Shown: positions 18,617 through 42,841 of the stretch, piece after piece
How positions within the stretch are numbered: the first letter of the stretch is position 1
Layout: each line of letters starts with the position of its first letter
Assembly: GCA_019309115.1 (NCBI GenBank)
Contig: JAFDGW010000020.1
Location: forward strand, 1 to 46,376
From: Deltaproteobacteria bacterium
Lineage (GTDB): Bacteria > Desulfobacterota > Syntrophobacteria > Syntrophobacterales > Thermodesulforhabdaceae
Direction of reading: 5' to 3'
DNA length: 46,376 bases
Notes under the pieces: generated by a model
What the model was told of the DNA's origin: nothing
What the model saw: the letters and a program-made list of their open reading frames with translations, nothing else
Databases searched by the model: none
Position numbers and translations under genes: made by a program

Positions 18617-18650
18617 GCAGTGCTACTTAGGAGGAGCTAGAAGTTCTTTC

Positions 18651-18957
18651 GTAAGCGATCACGGGGTGTTATACATTGCCAACTTCGGCTAACCATTCAA
18701 GAGCAGGTTTTTGTCCCTTGAAATAAGCATATAACGCATCTACAAGGACACTGAAGGTGGACTCCATTGGAGCTTACAAGTATGGCGCAGGGACAAAATT
18801 CGCTCGTATCACTTCTGGTACCTTGACTTCTCTTCCGTCACAAAACTTCAAAGCGAATGGTTCGTCCGGCCAGATTGTTGGTAGGATTAATACTCTCTTC
18901 AACCTCAATGTGTACAGGAATCTGCAACTCCACTATGATTACCCTGTGATCGCTTAC
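18651..18957. mobile_element. Small element with terminal inverted repeats, copy 1 (307 bp, internally deleted)
   Basis: It starts GTAAGCGATCACGGGGT and ends with ACCCTGTGATCGCTTAC, an inverted repeat of 17 bp with one mismatch. It aligns along its length with the copy at 25731..26226 in the same orientation but lacks about 190 bp. On its minus strand it carries the conserved coding remnant FALKFCDGREVKVPE and the 32-codon ORF below. It carries no transposase, so it resembles a MITE or a decayed element mobilised in trans. Confidence 0.75.
18669..18767 (-). CDS. Tiny ORF inside element copy 1
   Basis: 32 aa: MESTFSVLVDALYAYFKGQK, then PALEWLAEVGNV. The matching segment in element copy 2 is broken by a frameshift and stop (STFNVLVDAFST then stop). 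It is either the end of a formerly larger gene or a small passenger gene. Not recognised. Confidence 0.3.
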   Translation of the reverse strand: MESTFSVLVDALYAYFKGQKPALEWLAEVGNV

Positions 18958-18967
18958 AAAATTTTTG

Positions 18968-25718: not shown

Positions 25719-25730
25719 GTAAAATTTTTC

Positions 25731-26226
25731 GTAAGCGATCACAGGGTGTTATATATTGCCAGCTTCGGTTAATCGTTCAAGATCAGGTTTTTGTCCCTTG
25801 AAATTAAGTAGAGAATGCATCTACGAGGACATTGAAGGTGGACTTGCATTGAAGCTTACAGATATGGCGTAAGGACAAAATTTGCTCGTATCATTTCTGG
25901 TGTCTTGACTTTTCTTCCGTCACAAAACTCCAAAGCGAATGATTCGTTCAGCCAGATTTTCGAAAGCTCGGCTATCGTCTTCTTATCTTCAATGCCCGCC
26001 TTTTCACGCTCAATGATAAAATGCCGAACCGCTGTGGGTGTTGTCTCCCAGCTCCCCTCTGACAGAAATCCCAAAGCTTCTGCGCCTAATGAAATATCAA
26101 CGGTGGGTGCTTTCTTCCGCTTCAACAAGCTGCTCCCCTTAGAAGACCGTTTCTACATATCACAAAAACCGCTCAGTGTGCATAAAAATCTGCATCCTCA
26201 CTTATGATTACCCTGTGATCGCTTAC
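25731..26226. mobile_element. Small element with terminal inverted repeats, copy 2 (496 bp)
   Basis: It is bounded by a perfect 17-bp inverted repeat, GTAAGCGATCACAGGGT at 25731 and its complement at 26210-26226. It is the fuller version of the element at 18651..18957, in the same orientation. The minus strand holds one 90-codon ORF and a broken second one. No transposase is present. The two copies bracket the pilus cassette as direct repeats. Confidence 0.8.
25856..26128 (-). CDS. Unrecognised ORF carried by element copy 2
   Basis: 90 aa, not recognised. It contains AVRHFIIEREKAGIEDKKTI, then LNESFALEFCDGRKVKTPE and ends RANFVLTPYL. The last third is conserved in element copy 1 (FALKFCDGREVKVPE, ending FVPAPYL), and many of the base differences leave the protein unchanged or conservatively changed, which suggests it was once under selection. 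No export signal or membrane helix. It may be a passenger gene or the relic of a larger one. Confidence 0.45.
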   Translation of the reverse strand: MLKRKKAPTVDISLGAEALGFLSEGSWETTPTAVRHFIIEREKAGIEDKKTIAELSKIWLNESFALEFCDGRKVKTPEMIRANFVLTPYL

Positions 26227-26267
26227 ATAGAGGCCCAAGACGAAGGGCGAATAACCGATGCGCCAAA

Positions 26268-31332: not shown

Positions 31333-33378
31333 CTACTCGGAATTGATTATTGCATCCAGAGCCATGCCAAGAGGAACAGGTAAATCTGCGAATGATGGTA
31401 CTTTTTGAGCTTTCGGAATCTGGAGTTGGTTTTTCCCAGAAAGCTCCCACTTTACACTGTCGCATAGGCTTTCAAAGAGCGAAAGGTCATGCAGGAGGCC
31501 TCGATCATAGGCGTCACTGATAGCAAATGCTATTTCTATGAGAGCGGCGTAACGGGGTTTCAAGAGGGTTGCCTGAACTTTCGATAAAAGCTTTCGTCTG
31601 TCATACGCTTGGCCACATCTACGAGGTTTAATCAGTCCGAACAGCTCCAGCTTTCGCTCATTGAGCCTTTCAAAGACCGTTCGGTTCTTCGTTATGCCAT
31701 TCTGTTTCCTCACCGCATCAAGGACTCCGGCATAAACGGCTCGTGCTATGAGTTCTCCCAGCTTGGAATGACCCCCGGTGAGATTCGCCTCGGGTCCCCG
31801 ACCTGATACCACAATAATTTCATCCGTTCCGGTGCCCGTCGCCTGCCAGGCCAGCGGGTTCTGAGTACTACGGATGTCCAAATCCTGAAGAGCCGCCGTC
31901 TTTGCTTCCGTTGCCGTGATAATGGCCCGCGTCATTGCTCTTGGTGTAAGGTATCTATTTGTAAGCAGAATGATGTTTATCGTGCCTGGTTCTTTGAAAT
32001 TGCCCCTGTCTTTCGACATCCGTTGAGCATTGCCTCTAACTCCGGCCGTAACCAGTGCATACACCACAAACCCATCTTCTTCGACCTTTTGAACAGACAG
32101 GTTGTCCATGTTCGCTCCGGTAAAGAGCATGGAAGTCTTTTCCGGACTCAATTTCAGAACATCATACATATGTTTCCGTGTGGTTTCAAAGCTAAGGCGG
32201 TGATACATGTTCCAGCAGGGAGGTGGCGAGTAGCTGTTTCCAACAACAGTCACGGCCTTTCTCGGGCCTTCCAGTGTGGATATGATATCCATTGGTTCGG
32301 TGAAAGAGATGACCAGGGTCTTGTGCAAAAAGTCCCAGACTATTGCGTCTAAAATTTCGGCCGAAGCAATATAAGGAAGATTCAGGGGTGTATCCAACCG
32401 ACGTCTGGCAACTATTCTTTCTCTTTCAACGAGGTTTTCCCTTTTGAGAAATTCGTCTTCGTAAATGGTTGCCGATAGCCACTGCACAAAGAGACCTGTG
32501 TTGACTGATATTCGGCAGGTGAGATCGCAGGGGAAAAAGTAAATGTTGCCGTTTTTTACAGCATCTACATTCTTCCAACCTGGCTTCAACAAAAAGGCCT
32601 TAACCAATTCGGCATCACCACCGCAACCGTATATAACCTGAGGATTGAAAGATTGCCACTGCTTGAGCGTGACTGGAACAATTGGCTCATTTTTTCCGAA
32701 AGCAGGAGGTATTCCCCCGGCAAGCTTTATCAGAAGATTTTGAAAAGATCCGGCACTTGGAGTGTAAATGGTATCAGAAGTGGCCCGGCCCATAATGCGC
32801 ATGACTCGTTTTCTGTGGCTTTTCGGGATTCGGGCCAGTTTACGTGATATGATTTTTATCTGATCATGTATATTGCTTACGATTTTGTTGGCTTCTGCTT
32901 CCCTTCTGACCAGCCTGCCAATGGCACAAATGTTCGTATAGAGGTCGTTTAGGTCGTTAAAATTAAGCTTTTCTACCCGGGCGAAACGGGATAATTGTTC
33001 CCGTAGCGGTTCGTGCATTTCGTGAATGAACACAATGCCACTGCTTTCTCCCAATGCGCGTTTTATCTCTTCCACACTGGGCGCAAAAAAGCTGCCCACA
33101 ATGCGAATGTTTTCAGCAACCGGTGCAGCCTGGTATTTTCGCAGGGTGTCCAAGTCATGAACGGTTATGCCCCTTAAAAAGTTGCCCACTCCGAGCATAA
33201 GAAAAATCTCCGTTACCGAGCTGTCCAAACTAACAACCCCTTTCTTGATTTCGGCGGTTTTCAGGGCCACAGGTAGTTCGGAGACATTGGAGCAATCAAA
33301 GCTCCAAACAGCTGTAGTGGTGAAAATGGTAAACAAAACCGACAGAACCAATATCAGAAATTTCCGCATACGTTGCAT
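31333..33378 (-). CDS. Exported BtuF-CbiZ fusion: corrinoid-binding protein plus adenosylcobinamide amidohydrolase domain
   Basis: 681 aa; GGAGGAG lies 9 nt before the ATG. A signal peptide covers residues 1-26. Residues about 45-310 are a BtuF-type substrate-binding domain (GVVSLDSSVTEIFLMLGVGN, FNPQVIYGCGGDAELV). Residues about 345-560 are a CbiZ domain: TSMLFTGANMDNLSVQ, YALVTAGVRGNAQRMSKDRG, GTINIILLTNRYLTPRAM, EAKTAALQDLDI and SRGPEA-like SGRGPEANLTGGHSKLGEL. A helical tail of about 120 residues follows. CbiZ cleaves the side-chain amide of cobinamides so that foreign corrinoids can be remodelled, normally in the cytoplasm. The signal peptide and BtuF fusion place it in the periplasm here. 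Confidence 0.85.
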   Translation of the reverse strand: MQRMRKFLILVLSVLFTIFTTTAVWSFDCSNVSELPVALKTAEIKKGVVSLDSSVTEIFLMLGVGNFLRGITVHDLDTLRKYQAAPVAENIRIVGSFFAPSVEEIKRALGESSGIVFIHEMHEPLREQLSRFARVEKLNFNDLNDLYTNICAIGRLVRREAEANKIVSNIHDQIKIISRKLARIPKSHRKRVMRIMGRATSDTIYTPSAGSFQNLLIKLAGGIPPAFGKNEPIVPVTLKQWQSFNPQVIYGCGGDAELVKAFLLKPGWKNVDAVKNGNIYFFPCDLTCRISVNTGLFVQWLSATIYEDEFLKRENLVERERIVARRRLDTPLNLPYIASAEILDAIVWDFLHKTLVISFTEPMDIISTLEGPRKAVTVVGNSYSPPPCWNMYHRLSFETTRKHMYDVLKLSPEKTSMLFTGANMDNLSVQKVEEDGFVVYALVTAGVRGNAQRMSKDRGNFKEPGTINIILLTNRYLTPRAMTRAIITATEAKTAALQDLDIRSTQNPLAWQATGTGTDEIIVVSGRGPEANLTGGHSKLGELIARAVYAGVLDAVRKQNGITKNRTVFERLNERKLELFGLIKPRRCGQAYDRRKLLSKVQATLLKPRYAALIEIAFAISDAYDRGLLHDLSLFESLCDSVKWELSGKNQLQIPKAQKVPSFADLPVPLGMALDAIINSE

Positions 33379-33384
33379 TCTCGA

Positions 33385-33741
33385 TTACTCCTCCGGAACA
33401 TAAACCATTGTGCCGTCCTGGAGCCTGTAGGCGGTGCCGAGTCGTTCCCCAAAACCTTTCGCCTTTTTACCTGTCACCTTCATTGCCTTGATTTTTTTGC
33501 CCTTTTTGACAATCAATTCCAAATTGCCTTTTCTGTCTTTTTTCAGGATTGTCATTTCTGATTGTTGGCTGAATAGGTCTGTTAACCGGTAAGCAGCGAA
33601 CAGGGTAAGCAGAAGTCCCACAATAAACACCAGGCCGAGGTCGAACAGGTTGGCAACACCTGATAAGGGGTCATCCGGTTCAAAATCAAATCCCCGCCGA
33701 TGCGCGCCTATCAGATTTGATCGCTTCTGCAGAAACGTCAT
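33385..33741 (-). CDS. DUF2149 protein, ExbD/MotB-like single-pass membrane protein
   Basis: 118 aa from the ATG at 33741 (AAGGGGG upstream), overlapping the MotA/ExbB-like gene by 56 nt. DPLSGVANLFDLGLVFIVGL starts the only membrane helix, and an Asp sits at its beginning. The layout (short basic cytoplasmic part, Asp, helix, small exported domain ending RLQDGTMVYVPEE) resembles ExbD, TolR and MotB, where the Asp carries protons. DUF2149 genes are typically found beside MotA/ExbB-like and CobN-like genes. I infer it is the ExbD-like partner of the next gene upstream. Confidence 0.8.
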   Translation of the reverse strand: MTFLQKRSNLIGAHRRGFDFEPDDPLSGVANLFDLGLVFIVGLLLTLFAAYRLTDLFSQQSEMTILKKDRKGNLELIVKKGKKIKAMKVTGKKAKGFGERLGTAYRLQDGTMVYVPEE

Positions 33742-34351
33742 TGTTTTTATCCCCTTTTTCTGTTTGTGGTGCTTTAGCAAGTTCAGCAATATATTCCATT
33801 TGCAGACAGTCTCTTTCGACCCATCGTTTTCGTATGGAATGAATGACATAAGTTAGCCCTGCCTGACCGAGCCCGACAACAGTCGTGGTGAATGCAATAA
33901 CCAGGTCTGAAGACAGCCTGCCAATGTCTCCCTGGGATAGGGCAGCAAGCCCGGTTCCCATAGGAATCAGAGTACCCATAAGGCCTAGAGTCGGGCCAAT
34001 GCGCACCACGGTTCTGAGCCAGTCGAGAGATTTTTCTAGCTCCTGCTCTTTGGAATATAGGAGGTAGGCGATCTGAGCTTCCTGGTCTTGGCCGTGTGAT
34101 GAGATGATATTTTCAAGGCTGTTGTAGAAGCTGACGACGTAATGAGACGATGTGGTTATGTTAGTGGAATAATTGTCCCTCCTTATGATTAAAGTTTTTT
34201 CGTATTTCTTTCGAGTGAGCCAATCTCCAAAGAATCTTCCGATTTCCAGGATGCACCAGAGTGTGAGTACACTCAGCAAAAACAACACCGGGTAAAGCAA
34301 GGAACTGGAAACGAGGTAAATAAAAGCACTGAGCAATGCCCCAATCTTCAT
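33686..34351 (-). CDS. MotA/TolQ/ExbB-family proton channel protein
   Basis: 221 aa. An N-terminal membrane helix (about 18-38) is followed by a cytoplasmic loop and two further helices. The family signature is RIGPTLGLMGTLIPMGTGLA, then the last helix DLVIAFTTTVVGLGQAGLTY. ExbB/TolQ/MotA pentamers surround a dimer of ExbD/TolR/MotB and convert proton flow into movement. The start overlaps the DUF2162 stop (ATGA) and the end overlaps DUF2149, so the three are translationally coupled. Separate ExbB proteins occur in the neighbouring operon, so this channel probably has its own job. Confidence 0.88.
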   Translation of the reverse strand: MKIGALLSAFIYLVSSSLLYPVLFLLSVLTLWCILEIGRFFGDWLTRKKYEKTLIIRRDNYSTNITTSSHYVVSFYNSLENIISSHGQDQEAQIAYLLYSKEQELEKSLDWLRTVVRIGPTLGLMGTLIPMGTGLAALSQGDIGRLSSDLVIAFTTTVVGLGQAGLTYVIHSIRKRWVERDCLQMEYIAELAKAPQTEKGDKNNDVSAEAIKSDRRASAGI

Positions 34352-35175
34352 TTTTCCTGTCTCCTGTGTAAGCCGCTACCATATACGATTTCGATGACAC
34401 CTGGGGCCCGATAGTATGCGTTGGCTGGTTTGTCTTTTCTGGCTTTTGATAGGGAACTTACAAGCCCGACAATGAACGCAACTAAGGTCGAGGCCCATAA
34501 TATTACTTGCAACCGGGGGTATGAAGAATGCGGTGCTTCCTTTTGGGATACTATACGATATACTCGGATTGCGTCCTCCAAGGATGGACTCAAGAACATG
34601 GTAAGAAGTGTGTAGATTGAAGTAGCTATCATCACCGCACCGAGTGTGGTTTCCAGATCTTTTTTCAATTTTGCCGAAATTAGGTGATACAGACATGCGG
34701 TGAACAGGCCGATTGTTGTGAAGGTTATCCACACAATTCCCACGGTTGACCATATAGAACGAGAAGTTGCGGCGATGACAACAGCCACGGTGCAACCTAT
34801 TGCCGTAAGACACACCGGACAGGGCAGCACCAGGGCCAGCCATGCTGCATTTCCGGGCTTACCATCATGGGGTTTTCTGGATATAATGAGGATTCCCCAC
34901 ACTATTAGACCGGTCGAAATCAAGATATGCAGGTCGGTGCCGTGTTGTAGGAGCCACTTGAGTGTGGAAGGTGAGCGAATGATGTCGTTGTGCGAGAAAA
35001 GTGCCCCAAGGGCTGTCATGACTGCCAGGTATGACAGCCCGTAAATCAATGGCAGGCCCATCTTTGCCAAAGTCTTTTTCTGAACGCACACACCGTAGTA
35101 AAGGCCTGCTCCACTTTTTACAGCAAACACACCCAGGGCAACGCATAGGCCGATAATGAGCGTTTTGAGTTCCAT
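34348..35175 (-). CDS. DUF2162 multi-pass membrane protein, putative transporter
   Basis: 275 aa with about seven hydrophobic segments. The helix AAWLALVLPCPVCLTAIGCT contains a CPVC motif reminiscent of the LysE/NicO/CcdA group of small transporters, to which DUF2162 is, as I recall, related. It begins 15 nt after btuB and overlaps the proton-channel gene by 4 nt. Placement suggests it moves a corrinoid product or cobalt ion across the inner membrane, or conducts electrons through the Cys pair; the sequence does not decide. Confidence 0.75.
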   Translation of the reverse strand: MELKTLIIGLCVALGVFAVKSGAGLYYGVCVQKKTLAKMGLPLIYGLSYLAVMTALGALFSHNDIIRSPSTLKWLLQHGTDLHILISTGLIVWGILIISRKPHDGKPGNAAWLALVLPCPVCLTAIGCTVAVVIAATSRSIWSTVGIVWITFTTIGLFTACLYHLISAKLKKDLETTLGAVMIATSIYTLLTMFLSPSLEDAIRVYRIVSQKEAPHSSYPRLQVILWASTLVAFIVGLVSSLSKARKDKPANAYYRAPGVIEIVYGSGLHRRQEK

Positions 35176-35190
35176 CGATTGTCTTCCTTT

Positions 35191-37224
35191 CTAAAACTTC
35201 ATCTTAAAGCCGCCGGTCACCGTTATTCCAGGCATGGGGTAACCATCGACGTAAGAGTAATCTTTATCGGTCAGGTTATCTATGTACAGGTACGGGCTGA
35301 AATGTTTAACTGGATACAAGTCAAGTCTTAGCGAATAAGTGGTAAAACCGCCTTTATCCATTATGCTTCCGTAGTTCGGAGAGAAGAAATTCCAGTTCTG
35401 CACCTTTTGAGGGCCGTGATAATTTGCCCAGATGTTCAGGTCGGCCAGTTCGTCAAAGCTGAATTTAATTCCTGCAATGAGGTTTCCCTTTGAAACATAA
35501 GGAATCGTGTCAGTGCCCAGTTGTTCAGCAGATTCGTCGTCGTCTAGCTCACGCTTAAAATAGTAAATCCAGTCCAGGTAAGGTGAAAGCCCTATGTGAT
35601 GGTTCCGGACGGAGAGTGAATAATCATAGGATATCGAGCCGTCTATGCCGATGTAGGTTGCTCCTTCAACATTTTCATACGTTGTCCATGAGCAGTCTCC
35701 GTCAACGCACTTCTGAAATCCACCGACGATACGATCAGAATAGTCAGTATAGAATACCGAAAAAGTGAAGGATGCACCTTTTAGAGAACCGTCGAATCCT
35801 GCTTCGTAGGTCACGCTTTTTTCGGGATCCAAGTCGGGGTTACCGATGATTTTAGTCCACATCCCTGACTCATACCTTCCGGCTAATTCATCTGCTGTAG
35901 GTGCCCTGAAACCGGTGCCAATGTGTACCCTGGCCGTGAGCCAGTCCAGAATATCGTATGTGGCGCCGATGCGCCAGCTGACATGATCAAAAGTCTCGTC
36001 ATCTTCAGTTACGATTAATCCTGGTGTTTCTTTGAGTGTCTCATCGAATCTGTCGTAGCGTAGGCCTGCTGATATGTTGAGCTTGTCAAATGGGCTGATT
36101 CTTTCTTCGGCGTAAAAGGCGTAATTGTCGTATTCGGTGTCGGGGCTCCAAGGTGCCATGGTTGATGGCACATTCCACGATTCAACTTCAATGTGGTCCC
36201 AATCACTGCCGGCTACAAGTTTGCCGAGCCCGAAGGTAGGAATCTGCAGATAGGCTCTGAGCCCGCTCGTTTCGGTTTCAGTAACGGAGCTGAAGTAACC
36301 CCACGCTTGGGCTGGATCGTTCCAGGAACTTCTGTCATAAACGGAATAACCGCTAAGGTGCCATGATATCCCTTTGTCGCTTAGTTTACCATCGTAGCTC
36401 ATGGACCCATAACGTCTAAGAATGCTTTTATAGTCATCCAGATCGAGGTTGTATGTGGCTCCTGGATTGCCCACGTCCCAGGCTCTGAAGTACTGGCCAA
36501 CCACCATAATCCGTTGATTATCTGCTGGGTAAGCCGCGAGGCTTATTGAATAGGCTTCGTCGGAATATTCAGTATTATCTATGGTGTCTCCGTCTCCGTC
36601 AGAATAGTCGCTTTGTTGTTCTATTCTTCTCCCCGATGCGGATATGCCAACACGGTCGTTGAGAAAACTGCCATGAGCAGTCATAACTCCCTTGACTCTA
36701 TTCCACCTTCCATACTCAAACTGAGCCTCAGCTGTTGGTTTGCCTTTTCCCTCGCGAGTTATGAGGTTTATAACACCTCCCATAGCTGCAGAACCATACA
36801 TGACCGATGCAGGACCTCTCAGTATTTCCACTCGCTCAACGTTTTCAAGAGGGATCGTCGCTATGTTTCCCGTCCCTGCTCTGTGACCGTCGATTAGAAT
36901 GAGAACTCTTCCCTTTATGTCTGATCCATGAGTGTCAGTGCGGAAGCCTCGGATGTCAACGGACGTGAGTGACCCAGGATAGCGATGAAAATGGGTTGGG
37001 AACTTCTGTATCAATAGCTCTGATAGATCCGATGCGTGTGATTTTTCTATTTCATCTCGAGTTATGACGTCAACCCTTACAGGAAGCTGTCGAACCGGTG
37101 TGGGTGTTTTTGTCGCTGTGACCACCACAGGTTCTAGTTCTATGGCTGACGCTTTAGTGGGATTGCTAAGAATCATGAATGAGATCAGGGATAAAAAGGC
37201 CACGAAGGCCCGCCAGAACTCCAT
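35191..37224 (-). CDS. btuB: TonB-dependent outer-membrane receptor, BtuB-like
   Basis: 677 aa. GGGAGG precedes the ATG. A signal peptide (1-27) is followed by a TonB-box-like ELEPVVVTATKT. The plug domain (35-150) contains LPVRVDVITRDEIEKS and VERVEILRGPASVMYGSAAM. The 22-strand barrel ends in an aromatic residue (GGFKMKF). Size and the upstream cobalamin riboswitch mark it as a corrinoid receptor. A 26-nt stretch of its early coding region (37186..37211, codons 5-13) recurs exactly in the leader of the divergent TonB operon. First gene of the corrinoid operon. Confidence 0.93.
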   Translation of the reverse strand: MEFWRAFVAFLSLISFMILSNPTKASAIELEPVVVTATKTPTPVRQLPVRVDVITRDEIEKSHASDLSELLIQKFPTHFHRYPGSLTSVDIRGFRTDTHGSDIKGRVLILIDGHRAGTGNIATIPLENVERVEILRGPASVMYGSAAMGGVINLITREGKGKPTAEAQFEYGRWNRVKGVMTAHGSFLNDRVGISASGRRIEQQSDYSDGDGDTIDNTEYSDEAYSISLAAYPADNQRIMVVGQYFRAWDVGNPGATYNLDLDDYKSILRRYGSMSYDGKLSDKGISWHLSGYSVYDRSSWNDPAQAWGYFSSVTETETSGLRAYLQIPTFGLGKLVAGSDWDHIEVESWNVPSTMAPWSPDTEYDNYAFYAEERISPFDKLNISAGLRYDRFDETLKETPGLIVTEDDETFDHVSWRIGATYDILDWLTARVHIGTGFRAPTADELAGRYESGMWTKIIGNPDLDPEKSVTYEAGFDGSLKGASFTFSVFYTDYSDRIVGGFQKCVDGDCSWTTYENVEGATYIGIDGSISYDYSLSVRNHHIGLSPYLDWIYYFKRELDDDESAEQLGTDTIPYVSKGNLIAGIKFSFDELADLNIWANYHGPQKVQNWNFFSPNYGSIMDKGGFTTYSLRLDLYPVKHFSPYLYIDNLTDKDYSYVDGYPMPGITVTGGFKMKF
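37186..37211. repeat. 26-bp direct repeat, copy A (in btuB codons 5-13)
   Basis: The plus-strand sequence begins CAGGGATAAAAAGGCCACG and is identical over 26 bases to 37685..37710. The flanks are unrelated. Because btuB is read from the minus strand, its mRNA is complementary to the leader RNA of the plus-strand operon over the full length. Confidence 0.95.
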
Positions 37225-37252
37225 TTTTTAACCTCCCTTTTTGTGGTTCAAA

Positions 37253-37286
37253 CAAAAAAATCCCTGGAGCCCATGCCCCAGGGATT
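37253..37286 (-). terminator. Terminator of the cobalamin riboswitch
   Basis: On the minus strand ATCCCTGG and CCAGGGAT form a stem around a G/C-rich loop, followed by seven T. It lies between the riboswitch and the btuB ribosome site, as in transcription-terminating riboswitches. Transcripts stopped here lack the btuB start and the 26-nt repeat. Confidence 0.88.
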
Positions 37287-37349
37287 GCACCCTTTTTTGC
37301 TTCATCCCGTTACGCCCGCTAAGAGCCGCCCTCGACTCCTCAGCCGGCC

Positions 37350-37512
37350 GGTATCAGGCAGGTCTTCTGACTCACGGATCATCCTACTCCCCGCACCTTC
37401 CCATCCCTTACGGGACAGTGGCCTTTAGCGGGTTTCGTCCCCGTTCACAGCGGCGGGACCGTCCCCGACTTTCACGGGGTTCCCTTTTAAGCCCCAAAGG
37501 GCACCTGATACC
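37350..37512 (-). ncRNA. Cobalamin riboswitch
   Basis: On the minus strand P1 pairs GGTATCAGG (37512 end) with CCTGATACC (37350 end). Between them are the conserved parts of the B12 element: GGTGCC, AAGGGAA, then GGGACGGTCCCGCCGCTG, a GCCACTG segment, GGGAAGG, and GAGTCAGAAGACCTGCC close to P1. B12 binding should favour the terminator at 37253..37286 and shut off btuB and the genes behind it. Very clear match. Confidence 0.97.
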
Positions 37513-37546
37513 AATTATTGATGATTACCTTGCGGTTCGTCCAACC

Positions 37547-37574
37547 ATTATCAAAGGTATTGAGATGATGTCAA
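37547..37574 (-). promoter_or_regulatory. Promoter of the corrinoid operon
   Basis: Minus strand: -35 TTGACA (37574-37569), 16-bp spacer, -10 GATAAT (37552-37547). The expected start near 37540 is about 28 nt ahead of the riboswitch P1 stem. Confidence 0.7.
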
Positions 37575-37632
37575 TAGTCTATGAGAGTTGTGTTCGAAAA
37601 ATGGTTTGAACAGCCATCCGAGGAGATGCTTG

Positions 37633-37661
37633 TTGACTTTTGCTCTTTCAAAACATACTAT
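37633..37661 (+). promoter_or_regulatory. Promoter of the TonB energiser operon
   Basis: -35 TTGACT (37633-37638), 17-bp spacer, -10 TACTAT (37656-37661). The predicted start near 37668 gives a leader of about 90 nt containing the repeat and hairpin described next. Confidence 0.7.
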
Positions 37662-37684
37662 TAGCACGCACTTTGGAATTTTTG

Positions 37685-37710
37685 CAGGGATAAAAAGGCC
37701 ACGAAGGCCC
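37685..37710. repeat. 26-bp direct repeat, copy B (in the leader of the TonB operon)
   Basis: Identical to 37186..37211. It lies in untranslated leader and supplies the 5' arm of the hairpin at 37694..37746. Confidence 0.95.
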
Positions 37711-37746
37711 TTCTAAGCAAGGAGGGTTTTTGTGGCCTTTCTTTTT
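37694..37746 (+). terminator. Strong leader hairpin with U tract (attenuator or sRNA terminator)
   Basis: AAAGGCCAC (37694-37702) pairs with GTGGCCTTT (37732-37740). The helix can continue through five A-U/G-U pairs into an inner stem CCCTTCT/AGGAGGG with loop AAGCA, giving about 21 pairs. It is followed by CTTTTT. It stands between the promoter and the first gene with no upstream plus-strand gene to terminate, so it should either attenuate the operon or end a short RNA. Confidence 0.8.
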
Positions 37747-37757
37747 GGGGGACGAGT

Positions 37758-38570
37758 ATGGGGCGAATGTTTGTATTTATCCTGACGAGCGTGGCGTTTA
37801 TCTCATTTTTGAATCTGAGTTTTGCCGAAAAACCGTCGCTTTTATTTTTGTCCCTGTCTCAGGCTTTGAAACAGGAAAAACAAGCCTGTGATAATCACCG
37901 AAGGTGGGAAAAAGAAAGAGCAGCGATCGAGCAAAAGATTTTAGCCGCAAAGTTAAAGCTTGGGTACCTCAAAAGGCAAAAGGAACTTTACGAAAGATAT
38001 AATGCTCTTGCGAAGAAAAGGCTGGATCTTTTGAAAGATCAGGAAAGAGAAACCGAATTTTTTGCAGAATATCTTGAGCCTTTCTTGTTGGAAATAGTGG
38101 AACGCCTCGAGAAAGCTGTCCGAAATGATTTGCCGTTTTTGCAAAAGGAAAGAATAGAGCGCATTGAGAAATTAAAAAGACTTTTGGGCGATTATAAGGT
38201 TCCGGCCGTTGAGAAAGCAAAACAGGTACTGGAGACGCTTGTCGCAGAAGCAAAATACGGAAGAACATCCGACGTTTATGATGGCACGATTAAGCTTGAG
38301 GACAAAACTTGTTACGTTCGGTTTCTAAGGGTTGGAAGGCTGGCCTTGTTTAGCTCCACTCCGGATGGGAGCTACGTTGCCGTTTATGACCGGGCGACCG
38401 GCACCTGGAAACCGGTTTCTGAGGAACAAAAAAACAATGTGTTACGTGCTTTCGATATTATTGACGGATCGGTTCCTGTGAATGTGGCAGAAGGAAATAA
38501 CTGGCTTGTCGCGCCGATAGAATCTGAATTGGTTATGTCCAGAAGAAACTTGGAAAGCCAGGGAGAATAG
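37758..38570 (+). CDS. DUF3450 periplasmic coiled-coil protein of a TonB system
   Basis: 270 aa. A signal peptide (1-23) is followed by a long helical coiled-coil region (about 35-170) and a small beta-rich end (CYVRFLRVGRLALFSSTPDG to RATGTWKPV), the layout of DUF3450. Such genes stand ahead of ttpC-exbB-exbD-tonB operons in several proteobacteria. The role is not settled; it probably contacts the TtpC-like protein, which has a similar exported region. First gene after the attenuator-like hairpin; GGGGGA serves as ribosome site. Confidence 0.85.
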   Translation: MGRMFVFILTSVAFISFLNLSFAEKPSLLFLSLSQALKQEKQACDNHRRWEKERAAIEQKILAAKLKLGYLKRQKELYERYNALAKKRLDLLKDQERETEFFAEYLEPFLLEIVERLEKAVRNDLPFLQKERIERIEKLKRLLGDYKVPAVEKAKQVLETLVAEAKYGRTSDVYDGTIKLEDKTCYVRFLRVGRLALFSSTPDGSYVAVYDRATGTWKPVSEEQKNNVLRAFDIIDGSVPVNVAEGNNWLVAPIESELVMSRRNLESQGE

Positions 38571-38577
38571 CAGATCC

Positions 38578-40008
38578 ATGAAAAGCCGGAAGGTACTAGT
38601 TTTCATGCTGGTCAGTATGTGGGTGAACGCGGGAGTTGTTAGGGCAGTGACCGGATGGTCGGATGTAGAAAAGGGGTTGAAACGAGAAATTGCAGAGTCT
38701 CAAAAAGTGACGGAGCAAATCAATCAAAGGATAGAGTCTGAAAAAGAGAGTCTGCAGAAAGAGCTGAAAGATCTTCAAAAACAGGCGGAAAAACTGGAAG
38801 CGGAGGTTAACTCCCTGAAGAAGAGTTTTGATGGAGTGCACGAACAGGAAAAGGCACTGGGACAGAAGGTTTCGGCTGCAAGAAAAACAGCTATGGATAT
38901 CCAGAAAGATCTACTATCCATGGATGATGAACTGGAAGAGCTTTTCAAAAGAAACCCTACCGTTCTCAGCCATGGGGACTTGAGCGATTTACGCGCTAAA
39001 CTTCGCGATCCCGATTACGTCTGCACATTTGGTGACTTCCGATCCGTCATCGAGGTGCTACTGCAAGAAATAGAAGAGGGGGGAAGGGTACGTAAACAGA
39101 TGATGCCGGTTTATGTGGAAGATGGCTCACGTAAGAAGCTGGAGATCCTTCGGGTTGGAACTTCCGCACTGTTTGCTATTCATGACAACGATGTTCATCT
39201 TGTGAAATTGGCTCCGGACCTTTCGCTCGTTATTTCCAGAGTTCCACTTCCACACGAAGTGAAGCAACTGGTGAAAAAATACAGTACCGGTACAGGAAAT
39301 CTTGTACCAATAGATCTGTCATGGCAGGCTGCTTACGAAAACGTGGAAAGTTTCTCAATTACATCGAAGGTTATTAGATGGTTTTTAAACGGTGGGACGG
39401 TGATGTGGCCGCTTCTTGTTGTTGCCATTGCATCAGTTGCGATTATTGCAGAACGCTTATGGTTCTTTAGAAAACAAAAGATGCTGGATGACAAAACGTG
39501 GCAGGATTTCCTGGGCAACCTCGAAAGGCGACGGCTTGATACATGCAAGAAGATTTGCAGTCTGAATCTTATGAATCCGGCCTTAAGGGTCATTTCAATG
39601 GCTATGGAAAAGCTGGATCATATTTCGTCGAATTTTCAGGACAGAACAGCTGTCGAAGACGCTGTGTATGAAGCCTTTTTTGAGGAGTCAAACCGACTGG
39701 AGAGATTTTTATCCACTATTGCGATGTTTGCAGCAGTTTCTCCTTTGCTTGGGCTTTTGGGCACGGTGAGCGGGATAATACAGACTTTCCAAACAATTAC
39801 CGTTGTGGGGACGGGTAATCCAAAATATCTGTCGGCTGGAATCTCTGAAGCCCTTATAACAACTCAGTTTGGTTTAATGATAGCCGTACCGTTGGTGGTG
39901 GCACACCACTTTTTTGAACGTTACGCGGAAAGGTTTACCGAGGAGGCGGAAGAAAAAGCTATGAGGGTTTGTGAAGTGCTTGTGGGGAAGAAGGAGGCTG
40001 AAAGGTGA
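38578..40008 (+). CDS. TtpC-type TonB energiser: exported coiled coil fused to MotA/TolQ/ExbB domain
   Basis: 476 aa. A signal peptide (1-23) is followed by a coiled coil (about 35-115), a beta-rich section that resembles the end of the DUF3450 protein (RVGTSALFAIHDNDVHLV), a membrane helix (about 270-290, GTVMWPLLVVAIASVAIIAE) and the ExbB-like channel domain (SPLLGLLGTVSGIIQTFQ, then EALITTQFGLMIAVPLVVAH). TtpC is required with ExbB/ExbD/TonB in the Vibrio TonB2 system. It starts 7 nt after DUF3450 and its stop overlaps the next start (GTGA). Confidence 0.9.
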   Translation: MKSRKVLVFMLVSMWVNAGVVRAVTGWSDVEKGLKREIAESQKVTEQINQRIESEKESLQKELKDLQKQAEKLEAEVNSLKKSFDGVHEQEKALGQKVSAARKTAMDIQKDLLSMDDELEELFKRNPTVLSHGDLSDLRAKLRDPDYVCTFGDFRSVIEVLLQEIEEGGRVRKQMMPVYVEDGSRKKLEILRVGTSALFAIHDNDVHLVKLAPDLSLVISRVPLPHEVKQLVKKYSTGTGNLVPIDLSWQAAYENVESFSITSKVIRWFLNGGTVMWPLLVVAIASVAIIAERLWFFRKQKMLDDKTWQDFLGNLERRRLDTCKKICSLNLMNPALRVISMAMEKLDHISSNFQDRTAVEDAVYEAFFEESNRLERFLSTIAMFAAVSPLLGLLGTVSGIIQTFQTITVVGTGNPKYLSAGISEALITTQFGLMIAVPLVVAHHFFERYAERFTEEAEEKAMRVCEVLVGKKEAER

Positions 40009-40418
40009 AGGGTTTGCTCTATGTGTTATGGGTTTATCTAAGGCAAGGAGGGCCCTGGATGGTTTTTCTGGGGCTGTGCTCACTGTGCACGTGGGTTTTG
40101 CTAACCGCCTATGTGTTCCCGTTGTTTTGGCCCCGCGCAAAGAGGAAAAATTTTGTGATCGAGAATCGGCGAGTCATTTCCACAATGGCAGTGCTCGCCA
40201 TGGTGTCTCCTTTGCTTGGATTGCTTGGCACAGTGTCTGGTATGATTTCTGCCTTTGATACGCTGGCTCACTCGAGTGTAGTAAGTCCTAAAACTCTGGC
40301 CTCTTCTATATCCGAGGCGCTCATAACCACTCAGGTAGGCCTAACAATTGCGGTTCCGGCAATGCTTGGTGCACACGTTCTTAGCCAGAATAGGAACAGA
40401 CGGGGGAAGAATTCATGA
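40005..40418 (+). CDS. exbB: ExbB-like proton channel protein
   Basis: 137 aa with a GTG start behind GGAGG. It is shorter than typical ExbB but contains the diagnostic third-helix motifs SPLLGLLGTVSGMISAFDTL and EALITTQVGLTIAVPAMLGA. The membrane segments are at about 20-40, 58-85 and 105-125. It pairs with ExbD to harvest the proton gradient for TonB. Overlaps of 4 nt on both sides tie it to its neighbours. Confidence 0.9.
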   Translation: MKGLLYVLWVYLRQGGPWMVFLGLCSLCTWVLLTAYVFPLFWPRAKRKNFVIENRRVISTMAVLAMVSPLLGLLGTVSGMISAFDTLAHSSVVSPKTLASSISEALITTQVGLTIAVPAMLGAHVLSQNRNRRGKNS

Positions 40419-40843
40419 GGCGTTTGCTCTACTCCAGGCGACTCAAGCGACGTAGTGGAGTTGAAATTAACCTAGCCCCTCTTATGGACATGGTTTTCAT
40501 CTTGCTAATATTTTTCTTGGTTACGACCTCTTTCTCGCGAGAAAGTGGAATCACGGTTAAGAGACCTAAAGCAAAGACCGCCCAGTCTTTGGATAGTTCC
40601 AGCTTCATGGTTGGTATATCCAAAAGTGGTGACGTTTTTATTGAAGGTAAGCGAGTTGACATACGCATGGTTAGATCCATGGTAGCAAAGGCTTTGCGCG
40701 AAAACCCGAAAACGGGCGTTGTGATCGTCTGTGACAGAGATGCCAAAACCGACATGCTTATAAGGGTTCTTGATGAATGTCGAAGAGCTGGCACCAGGAA
40801 CATAAGTATTGCGGCCAGGAGGGTGCATGGAAGGGGGGATTAA
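40415..40843 (+). CDS. exbD: ExbD-like proton channel protein
   Basis: 142 aa. The membrane helix with the proton-carrying Asp is INLAPLMDMVFILLIFFLVT. The exported domain (about 50-142) has the ExbD/TolR fold pattern (VFIEGKRVDIRMVRSMVAKA, VIVCDRDAKTDMLIRVLDEC). It overlaps the tonB start by 17 nt. Confidence 0.94.
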   Translation: MRRLLYSRRLKRRSGVEINLAPLMDMVFILLIFFLVTTSFSRESGITVKRPKAKTAQSLDSSSFMVGISKSGDVFIEGKRVDIRMVRSMVAKALRENPKTGVVIVCDRDAKTDMLIRVLDECRRAGTRNISIAARRVHGRGD

Positions 40844-41582
40844 GCCAAAACACATCATTGCGGGAATCATCTGGAATTTTCTTATGTTTCTTGTTCTTGC
40901 CAAGATGAGTTATTACAAACCCGCTCCAGTGTTTTCCATGGCCGGACCGGTTGGAGTAACTTATCTATCACGTGGTGTTGATTTTTCTCCGCCACCTGAT
41001 AAACAAGCTGTGGAGGAAATGCCAGAGCCATTAGAGGATGTTCCTGAAGCTATTACAATTCCGGAAAGCATTTTAATGACAGATGTAGCTCCTGAAGAGA
41101 ACAGCCCCGAACTGCCGGTTTTGGAACCCCCGAAGTTACAGCATAAGGTGCAGGTTAAAAGGCAAATAGTTCACGCTAAGGTGGCGGTTAGAAAACAGAG
41201 AAGCAGGGCTATCAGCAGTGCTATGGGCAACGGATCTAATCGTGGGGCAAGTACTTTAGGGTTTGGTGGTGGTGGCAGCGGTGGAAGTGCATTGGGCTTG
41301 GCCGAAGTAGATGAACCTCCCAGAATACTGCATAAGGTGGAACCTCCCTATCCCCTCAGGGCGAGAAGGCTTCAAATAGAAGGGCAGGTTGTGGTGCAAT
41401 TTGTTGTGAATAAGCAGGGTAGTGTTCAAAATTTGAAAGTGCTTTCCGCTAATCCGAAAGGTTTTTTTGAAAAGTCTGTGTTGAATTCCCTGAAAAAATG
41501 GACTTTTCGACCGGGAAAATACAGGGGTCGTCCGGTAGATACGGTGGTCATCTTACCGGTAAAATTCCGTCTGAAAGATTAA
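40827..41582 (+). CDS. tonB: TonB energy transducer
   Basis: 251 aa from the ATG at 40827, which has AGGAGG 5 nt upstream. The N-terminal anchor is AGIIWNFLMFLVLA. A Pro/Glu-rich spacer (residues about 50-110) and a Gly/Ser-rich linker (GFGGGGSGGSALG) follow. The C-terminal domain (about 170-251) has EPPYPLRARRLQIEGQVVVQFV and WTFRPGKYRGRPV, the TonB signature. It should contact the TonB box of receptors such as the BtuB-like protein encoded divergently. Confidence 0.93.
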   Translation: MEGGIKPKHIIAGIIWNFLMFLVLAKMSYYKPAPVFSMAGPVGVTYLSRGVDFSPPPDKQAVEEMPEPLEDVPEAITIPESILMTDVAPEENSPELPVLEPPKLQHKVQVKRQIVHAKVAVRKQRSRAISSAMGNGSNRGASTLGFGGGGSGGSALGLAEVDEPPRILHKVEPPYPLRARRLQIEGQVVVQFVVNKQGSVQNLKVLSANPKGFFEKSVLNSLKKWTFRPGKYRGRPVDTVVILPVKFRLKD

Positions 41583-41611
41583 TGTAATTGAATTTTCTTG
41601 AAAGGATGCTC

Positions 41612-42841
41612 GTGCATAACCTGTTGAAGGTTTTCTTCCATACTGGGTTCATTATAGCGGGGATAGTGCTCGGTTTTTCATCGCCAGGAATGCCTTCTCA
41701 AGATGCAGCGGTTATCGCAAAAGCCCAACGGTACATGAAAGCAGGCAAATGTTCCAAGGCTGTGTCTATTCTTAAAGAGCATCTAGCTTCCTCTGGTAAA
41801 GACTCACCTGAAGTTTTTCTGGAGCTTGGTAATGCTTATGCACTTTGTGGGAAACCTGGGCTTGCTTATAGGGCTTACAAAAGTGGATTTGAGCGTGATC
41901 CAGGCAATTTTTCGCTCTGCAAGAGTGCAGCTCAGATGGCCTGGGAAATTAGAAGTTTTGTTGATGCGGGAAAGTATTTTGAACAGTGCGCGCGAATAAC
42001 CAAAAGAAGAAGCGAAAGATCTCAAATGTTTTTTCTTGCTGCATCTGCCTTTAGAAAAGCAGGACTTCCAAAAAAAGCATTCAACATAGCATCTGTATGG
42101 GTGAGAAACACAAGATCGCCGTCCGTAAATTGGTTGAAGCTTCACATGGATCTTGCGCTGCAGTTAAAATTTTTCAACGATGCTCGAAAATCTGCTCTGA
42201 CTCTGGTGGACATTAATCCCCTTGAAGAAACACCCTGGGTTGTTCTGGCTTATATAGCCAGAGAAAAGGGCGATGTTCCTGAAATGGCTGCCGCATTTGA
42301 GGTGCTGACACGACTCAAAAGTGCTGAAGATTACCAACAGGATTTGTTCAAGATTTACCGTTCACTAGGCATCTGTCGTCATTGCACGGAACTTTACGGG
42401 TCAATTAATGAATCTGGGAATTCGCCGGATTTTTTTAAAAAACTTATTTCTTGTAAACTTTGTGCAGGTGGTCCGGAATCTGCTCTGAAGTTCATCGAAG
42501 ATACCGTGAAAGAGACTAATATTTCAGGATTTTTACTGGAAAAAGCCAGAATTCTTATCCGGTTGAGACGTTTTAACGATACCACAAGGGTGTTGAGGGA
42601 AGTAATCGAGAAAGACTCAATGAATTTACGTGCTTATTTGTTGATGAGTATTGTTTCTGTACATCTGGGGGATTGGAAATCAGCAGAACACGCCTTAGAA
42701 AGAGCACATGTACTTTGTAACCACAGCTCATCTGCCGACCGAAAATTGTGTGTTCAGGTACACACACTGTACCGCGTGAGATCTCGTTATTTTACTGAAG
42801 CCGGCACCGGATTTGAACCGGTAGCCGGAGCGTTGGATTAA
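41612..42841 (+). CDS. TPR protein closing the TonB operon
   Basis: 409 aa from a GTG at 41612 (AAAGGA 5 nt upstream); a TTG at 41588 is an alternative without a ribosome site. A signal peptide is predicted at the start (LLKVFFHTGFIIAGIVLGF). Tetratricopeptide-like repeats follow from about residue 35 to 390 (VFLELGNAYALCGKPGLAYRAY, then AYLLMSIVSVHLGDWKSAEH). TPR proteins commonly end TtpC-type TonB operons and are thought to assist the system in the periplasm. It starts 29 nt after tonB. Confidence 0.85.
   Translation: MHNLLKVFFHTGFIIAGIVLGFSSPGMPSQDAAVIAKAQRYMKAGKCSKAVSILKEHLASSGKDSPEVFLELGNAYALCGKPGLAYRAYKSGFERDPGNFSLCKSAAQMAWEIRSFVDAGKYFEQCARITKRRSERSQMFFLAASAFRKAGLPKKAFNIASVWVRNTRSPSVNWLKLHMDLALQLKFFNDARKSALTLVDINPLEETPWVVLAYIAREKGDVPEMAAAFEVLTRLKSAEDYQQDLFKIYRSLGICRHCTELYGSINESGNSPDFFKKLISCKLCAGGPESALKFIEDTVKETNISGFLLEKARILIRLRRFNDTTRVLREVIEKDSMNLRAYLLMSIVSVHLGDWKSAEHALERAHVLCNHSSSADRKLCVQVHTLYRVRSRYFTEAGTGFEPVAGALD

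Follow-up and report, generated by a model that had tools for sequence, protein, structure and literature searches.

Probable trans pairing between a riboswitch-controlled btuB message and the terminator-like leader of a divergent TonB operon

The window analyzed here (46,376 nucleotides, contig JAFDGW010000020.1 of a Thermodesulforhabdaceae bacterium) carries btuB, a TonB-dependent receptor gene preceded by a cobalamin riboswitch, and, divergently oriented, a TonB operon whose leader contains a terminator-like hairpin. Comparison with relatives indicates that the btuB mRNA and the TonB-operon leader probably pair in trans and that this pairing is maintained by selection. The best single mechanism that we can propose, with a probability of roughly 40%, is that the btuB mRNA acts as an antiterminator of the TonB operon, as suggested by an earlier reading of the DNA from its letters alone (hereafter, the sequence-only reading).

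Complementarity between btuB and the TonB-operon leader

The putative pairing sites are the two copies of CAGGGATAAAAAGGCCACGAAGGCCC, a 26-nt exact direct repeat, the longest in the window. As the sequence-only reading had noticed, the copies lie in btuB codons 5-13 and in the TonB leader and have unrelated flanks; they are 499 bp apart. Because the genes diverge, the btuB mRNA is fully complementary to the leader. The features involved are as follows.

37186-37211, minus strand: btuB mRNA pairing site, coding sequence nucleotides +14 to +39 (codons 5-13); exact repeat, pairing kept in two relatives (G003 and G002, below)
37685-37710, plus strand: leader pairing site, made up of the single-stranded flank 37685-37693 and the 5' arm of the terminator hairpin; exact repeat, flank covarying with btuB across species
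35191-37224, minus strand: btuB, TonB-dependent receptor of 677 aa, at the head of a minus-strand gene run (open reading frames, Pfam)
37547-37574, minus strand: btuB promoter-like site TTGACA-16-GATAAT (scan)
37340-37523, minus strand: cobalamin riboswitch aptamer RF00174 (cmscan, 132.5 bits, E 2.9e-33; gathering score 31.5)
37259-37286, minus strand: riboswitch terminator-like hairpin, preceding both the btuB start and the pairing site (scan)
37633-37661, plus strand: TonB-operon promoter-like site TTGACT-17-TACTAT, predicted start near 37668 (scan)
37694-37746, plus strand: TonB-operon leader terminator-like hairpin and U tract, with a 20-21 bp stem (37694-37740) followed by CUUUUU (fold, scan, family model)
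37758-38570, plus strand: DUF3450 protein, first gene of the TonB operon (Pfam PF11932, E 2.4e-49)

The leader hairpin, with its U tract, sits between the promoter-like site and the first gene, as the sequence-only reading had it, and is predicted to be an intrinsic terminator. The riboswitch terminator, claimed to lie upstream of the repeat, is represented by the hairpin at 37286-37259; judged by position, the pairing segment downstream of it is predicted to be made only upon riboswitch read-through.

A search tolerating up to 3 mismatches found just two copies of CAGGGATAAAAAGGCCACGAAGGCCC in the 2.51-Mb genome, so that the repeat is not a REP-like (repetitive extragenic palindromic) element; many copies across the genome would have counted against the original suggestion. 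An exact search of the genome contig collection for the repeat core gave no matches. The pairing score of the two sites is 81, compared to a mean of 25.7 and a maximum of 38 in double dinucleotide shuffles.

Among the 56 genomes of the same class, searched for DUF3450, the divergent btuB/DUF3450 layout was detected only in the genome under study and in two others, denoted G003 and G002, which represent other genera of the same family (G002 is a Syntrophobacterales metagenome-assembled genome, JALXAE010000085.1). Both encode a cobalamin riboswitch and the leader hairpin, and both have, by reading, TTGAC-type sites at the equivalent place before the TonB operon. The complementarity in these genomes involves btuB codons 5-15 and the leader, with sequences that differ between the species. 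The 26 Watson-Crick pairs of the genome under study correspond in G003 to a 26-bp duplex (24 Watson-Crick and 2 G-U pairs, with a 3-nt leader bulge) and in G002 to a 29-bp duplex (23 Watson-Crick and 6 G-U pairs, with a 1-nt bulge), both free of mismatches: all differences between the arms in the relatives are G-U compatible. In all three genomes, pairing starts at coding sequence position +14/15, and the duplex spans a linear flank and the 5' arm of the terminator. The relatives thus keep both the hairpin and the complementarity, in line with the expectation of the sequence-only reading.

The pairing scores are significant in each genome (Gumbel p = 3e-9, 5e-5 and 5e-5, double dinucleotide shuffles), and every leader scores highest with its own btuB, the matched assignment summing to 196 and the next permutation to 170. 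The flanks, CAGGGAUAAAAA in the genome under study, CCGGGGACAGGAAAAA in G003 and GAUCCAAGGAACAAUC in G002, are significantly complementary by themselves, with the core shared with a wider leader family (see below) discounted and the A run fixed (p 0.004, 0.0009 and 0.0001; about 1e-7 when combined by hand with Fisher's method). Own-species flank pairs top every row and column, with scores of 28, 25 and 30 against at most 23. The pairing site is absent from the btuB orthologs of G001 and G004, members of the same family that lack the divergent operon. A BtuB-profile search of the genome contig collection recovered four loci, of which only those of G002 and G001 are close. Trans pairing of the RNAs is well supported because complementarity is kept while the sequences change, because each leader fits its own btuB best, and because G001 and G004 lack the site; the species-specific flanks point to such pairing. 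Even if nothing beyond the pairing is true, a coding region would here be under selection to pair with an RNA in trans.

Conceivably, a regulatory protein could bind the two copies as DNA and loop the divergent promoters, given that a direct repeat flanks these promoters and that the sequence recurs before metal-uptake genes. We consider this very improbable: the spacings of 499, 524 and 526 bp do not keep a constant helical phase, the two sides change together between species instead of retaining a single consensus, and in the leader family the sequence is part of the terminator 5' arm. Equally little credence is given to the idea that the coding region contains, in the btuB segment, a small intrinsic terminator or pause site (GGCC-UUCGU-GGCC-UUUUU). 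Positions 37211-37197 (minus strand) did score as terminator-like in the scan of the genome under study, but G003 has an interrupted U tract and G002 has none, and the flank match would be left unexplained.

A wider family of terminator-like leaders

On one point the mechanism of the sequence-only reading is not supported in its original form: the leader hairpin is not dedicated to btuB but belongs to a leader family with the 5' arm GGCCAYGAAGGC, according to a covariance model (R1) built partly from this very hairpin. It shares with the family the conserved 5' arm, the complementary 3' arm and the U tract, in the leader of a metal/TonB-type gene. The TonB leader is one case of this wide family of putative attenuators. 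A search pattern that fixed the 5' arm (GGCCAYGAAGGC ... GTGGCCTTTT) gave 12 matches in 11 of the 56 class genomes and matched 13 of 395 genomes of the phylum, with zero matches for the reversed-pattern control; with the 3' arm fixed, there were only five matches, two of them the hairpins of the genome under study and of G003 read backwards. The covariance model, derived from 22 hairpins, finds the family in about 30 of the 56 genomes at E < 1e-5, a count that includes several hairpins used in building the model. The family has no match in Rfam at gathering scores and is apparently uncatalogued.

L058-L081, L094, L161-L210 and 37694-37746: leader family with conserved 5' arm RGCCAYGAAGGY, found in this class and sparse across the phylum

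Those genes behind family leaders that were examined with Pfam encode TonB-receptor plug domains, TonB, ExbB, an ExbD-like protein and FecCD permeases, as well as DUF4198, CbiM-DUF4198, CooT, DUF3450, Peripla_BP_2, porins and FmdE; a CbiA-type ATPase that reads like CooC also follows a family leader, and a flavin reductase and a methyltransferase are apparent exceptions. The family offers, for the uptake of metals and cofactors in these bacteria, a regulon that can be tested, and it may deserve as much attention as the btuB/TonB pairing. No cis antiterminator was found upstream of the family leaders, where scores equal those of shuffles. In the search for antisense partners near other family leaders, with a pattern that missed some leaders, the sole high score (L072) came from a second family leader.

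Membership in the family bears on the repeat itself. About 20 of the 26 matched bases are consensus arms of the family, so that some of the match reflects the family and not this gene pair, and the btuB segment GCCUUCGUGGCCUUUUUA equals the 3' arm consensus and U tract of the family. One alternative is therefore that no trans pairing is selected and that the btuB segment is left over from the leader family or arose as a by-product of it, with occasional gene conversion between the two sites keeping the flanks alike. The identity of the copies in the genome under study, as after a recent copying event, fits this explanation, as does another receptor gene of G003, with GGCCATGAAGGC in its 5' untranslated region and GGCCUUCGUG in codons 5-8. 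We nevertheless regard it as rather unlikely. The complementarity of the flanks remains significant once the core is set aside and is specific to each species, and gene conversion between two short sites some 500 bp apart would be needed repeatedly, in three lineages. Furthermore, the G002 copies differ at 6 of 29 columns, all six G-U compatible (two of these are terminal and partly a matter of alignment choice), which would be expected if RNA pairing, and not identity of the DNA, were maintained.

That second TonB receptor of G003 (L089, contig G003:C3) has its start codon near reverse-strand position 1453. The element in its 5' untranslated region is the family 5' arm, and the one in codons 5-8 is followed by a U-rich stretch; a family terminator may here span the ribosome-binding site in cis, and the gene hints at how a btuB-type coding segment could arise. 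The family 5' arm itself could also fold as a small hairpin (GGYC-AYGAA-GRCC or AAGCC-AYGAA-GGCUU; A4 alignment, L194, L195, L199 and L208) with matching changes in several members, not all; this hairpin is a possible antiterminator element or protein site.

Antitermination by the btuB message and its alternatives

Under the proposed mechanism, at low B12 the riboswitch would let RNA polymerase reach the btuB coding region, and the nascent message would pair with the single-stranded flank of the leader and the 5' arm of its terminator. With the 5' arm paired, the terminator would be blocked and the TonB/ExbBD energiser genes would be transcribed. At high B12, btuB would end at the riboswitch terminator and the pairing site would never be made; the leader would terminate unless the factor controlling the wider family relieved termination. 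We infer that the two RNAs meet in the cell, that antitermination is the outcome, and that regulation runs in this direction.

The predicted energies are compatible with this scheme. The comparison of hybridisation with hairpin folding that the sequence-only reading had called for favors pairing. At 37 C, the predicted net energy is -13 to -15 kcal/mol when the hairpin is already complete and -23 to -31 kcal/mol when the leader has been transcribed only just past the 5' arm; the values remain favorable at 55 C. The B12 logic for the TonB operon also gains support from relatives. In G019, the orthologous operon is located directly behind its own cobalamin riboswitch (two divergent cobalamin riboswitches lie between a TonB-receptor gene and the DUF3450/TonB operon, L122 5253-5771), and in G041 and G042 it comes after a CbiZ-type gene. 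Trans antitermination would give the same B12 logic here as the riboswitch does in G019. Thus, of the B12-dependent trans antitermination originally put forward, the B12 part is strengthened, whereas antitermination is not distinguished from repression of btuB by the leader RNA.

In that alternative, the main rival and in its short-leader form already raised by the sequence-only reading, the leader RNA would be the regulator, acting as a terminated transcript of about 79 nt or while still forming the 5' end of a TonB mRNA; we consider this unlikely though worth weighing. The leader RNA would pair with btuB codons 5-15 and block initiation or promote decay, so that transcription of the TonB operon would damp btuB. 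The same pairing evidence serves this explanation. Antisense pairing over the ribosome-binding region or the first five or so codons hinders initiation, and the start of pairing at +14/15 in all three genomes lies at the edge of that region; a short RNA can also accumulate, which makes the kinetics easier than for antitermination. However, the bulk of the duplex lies beyond the start-codon region, the energiser and the receptor would become antagonists, and neither the pairing through the whole 5' arm of the leader's own terminator nor the riboswitch link would be explained.

Several points weigh against antitermination by the btuB message. The main objection is kinetic: published estimates allow about 1 s for the decision and require about 3 uM trigger RNA (PMC9071393), which exceeds usual mRNA levels. 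The synthesis of both RNAs at one spot, with the -35 boxes of btuB and the TonB operon separated by about 59 bp, might ease this difficulty. Codons 5-15 would also be contested by ribosomes translating btuB. The pairing evidence comes from three genomes, and the core of the match is explained by the wide leader family, which operates elsewhere without btuB. Finally, the search with the leader of G027 recovered no ungapped trans partner: its one match was to that same leader, and a control with the pattern reversed likewise yielded a single match.

Known systems and genomic context

In T-box leaders, a case of natural antitermination, tRNA pairs in trans with a large, structured leader and thereby prevents an intrinsic terminator from forming. 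The btuB mRNA would likewise prevent an intrinsic leader terminator by base pairing in trans, but the trans RNA would not be a tRNA and the T-box structure is absent here (no Rfam match). In synthetic small transcription activating RNAs (STARs), a linear region provides specificity and the terminator scaffold is constant (PMC5648800); the duplex described here similarly covers a linear flank and the terminator 5' arm, with a flank that changes and a scaffold that stays constant across species. STARs are engineered short RNAs, whereas here a natural mRNA, controlled by a riboswitch, would serve as the activator through its coding region. Like the SreA and SreB S-adenosylmethionine riboswitches of Listeria, which act on prfA (PMC8079631), this would be a riboswitch-controlled RNA pairing with another mRNA in trans; there, however, the effector is a terminated short RNA that inhibits translation, and here the read-through mRNA would act on termination. 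As with AspocR and Rli55 of Listeria, the synthesis of a longer, trans-acting RNA would depend on a B12 riboswitch, but AspocR represses pocR as an antisense RNA and Rli55 sequesters the EutV protein; neither disrupts a terminator by pairing (PMC8079631).

Our literature searches, which covered only papers under an open licence, turned up no example of a coding mRNA as antiterminator or of a natural STAR. The most far-reaching interpretation, somewhat less likely than not, is that the present system is a natural counterpart of STARs, in which a riboswitch-controlled coding region would antiterminate a divergent operon and extend B12 control to the energiser, building on an apparently uncatalogued metal/TonB attenuator family. 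If this is true, an ordinary message would signal its own existence to a second operon, and one riboswitch would co-induce the receptor and its energy supply without a protein regulator, as has so far been engineered with STARs.

The remaining genes of the two divergent runs are the following.

38578-42841, plus strand: rest of the TonB operon (open reading frames, Pfam), namely:
38578-40008, plus strand: DUF3450-ExbB
40005-40418, plus strand: ExbB
40415-40843, plus strand: ExbD
40809-41582, plus strand: TonB
41588-42841, plus strand: TPR protein
34348-35175, minus strand: DUF2162 gene of the btuB run (open reading frames, Pfam)
33686-34351, minus strand: ExbB-like gene of the btuB run (open reading frames, Pfam)
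33385-33849, minus strand: open reading frame of the btuB run
31333-33378, minus strand: BtuF-CbiZ gene of the btuB run (open reading frames, Pfam)

A duplex between btuB codons and the riboswitch core AAAGGCCAC was considered and rejected: it comprises 9 bp here and, by reading, is not kept in G003 or G002. Six genomes of family f3 (L037-L042) encode btuB orthologs each with two cobalamin riboswitches upstream. Upstream of btuB in G004 (L035 3090-3430), segments around TGTAGGGGCA..GTCGTCCC.ACAAT are repeated, by eye, and apparently represent a dispersed repeat. Elsewhere in the window, 18647-18958 and 25727-26227 share several exact repeats 16-25 bp in length, at a distance of about 7.1-7.3 kb, which suggests a second, imperfect duplicated segment.
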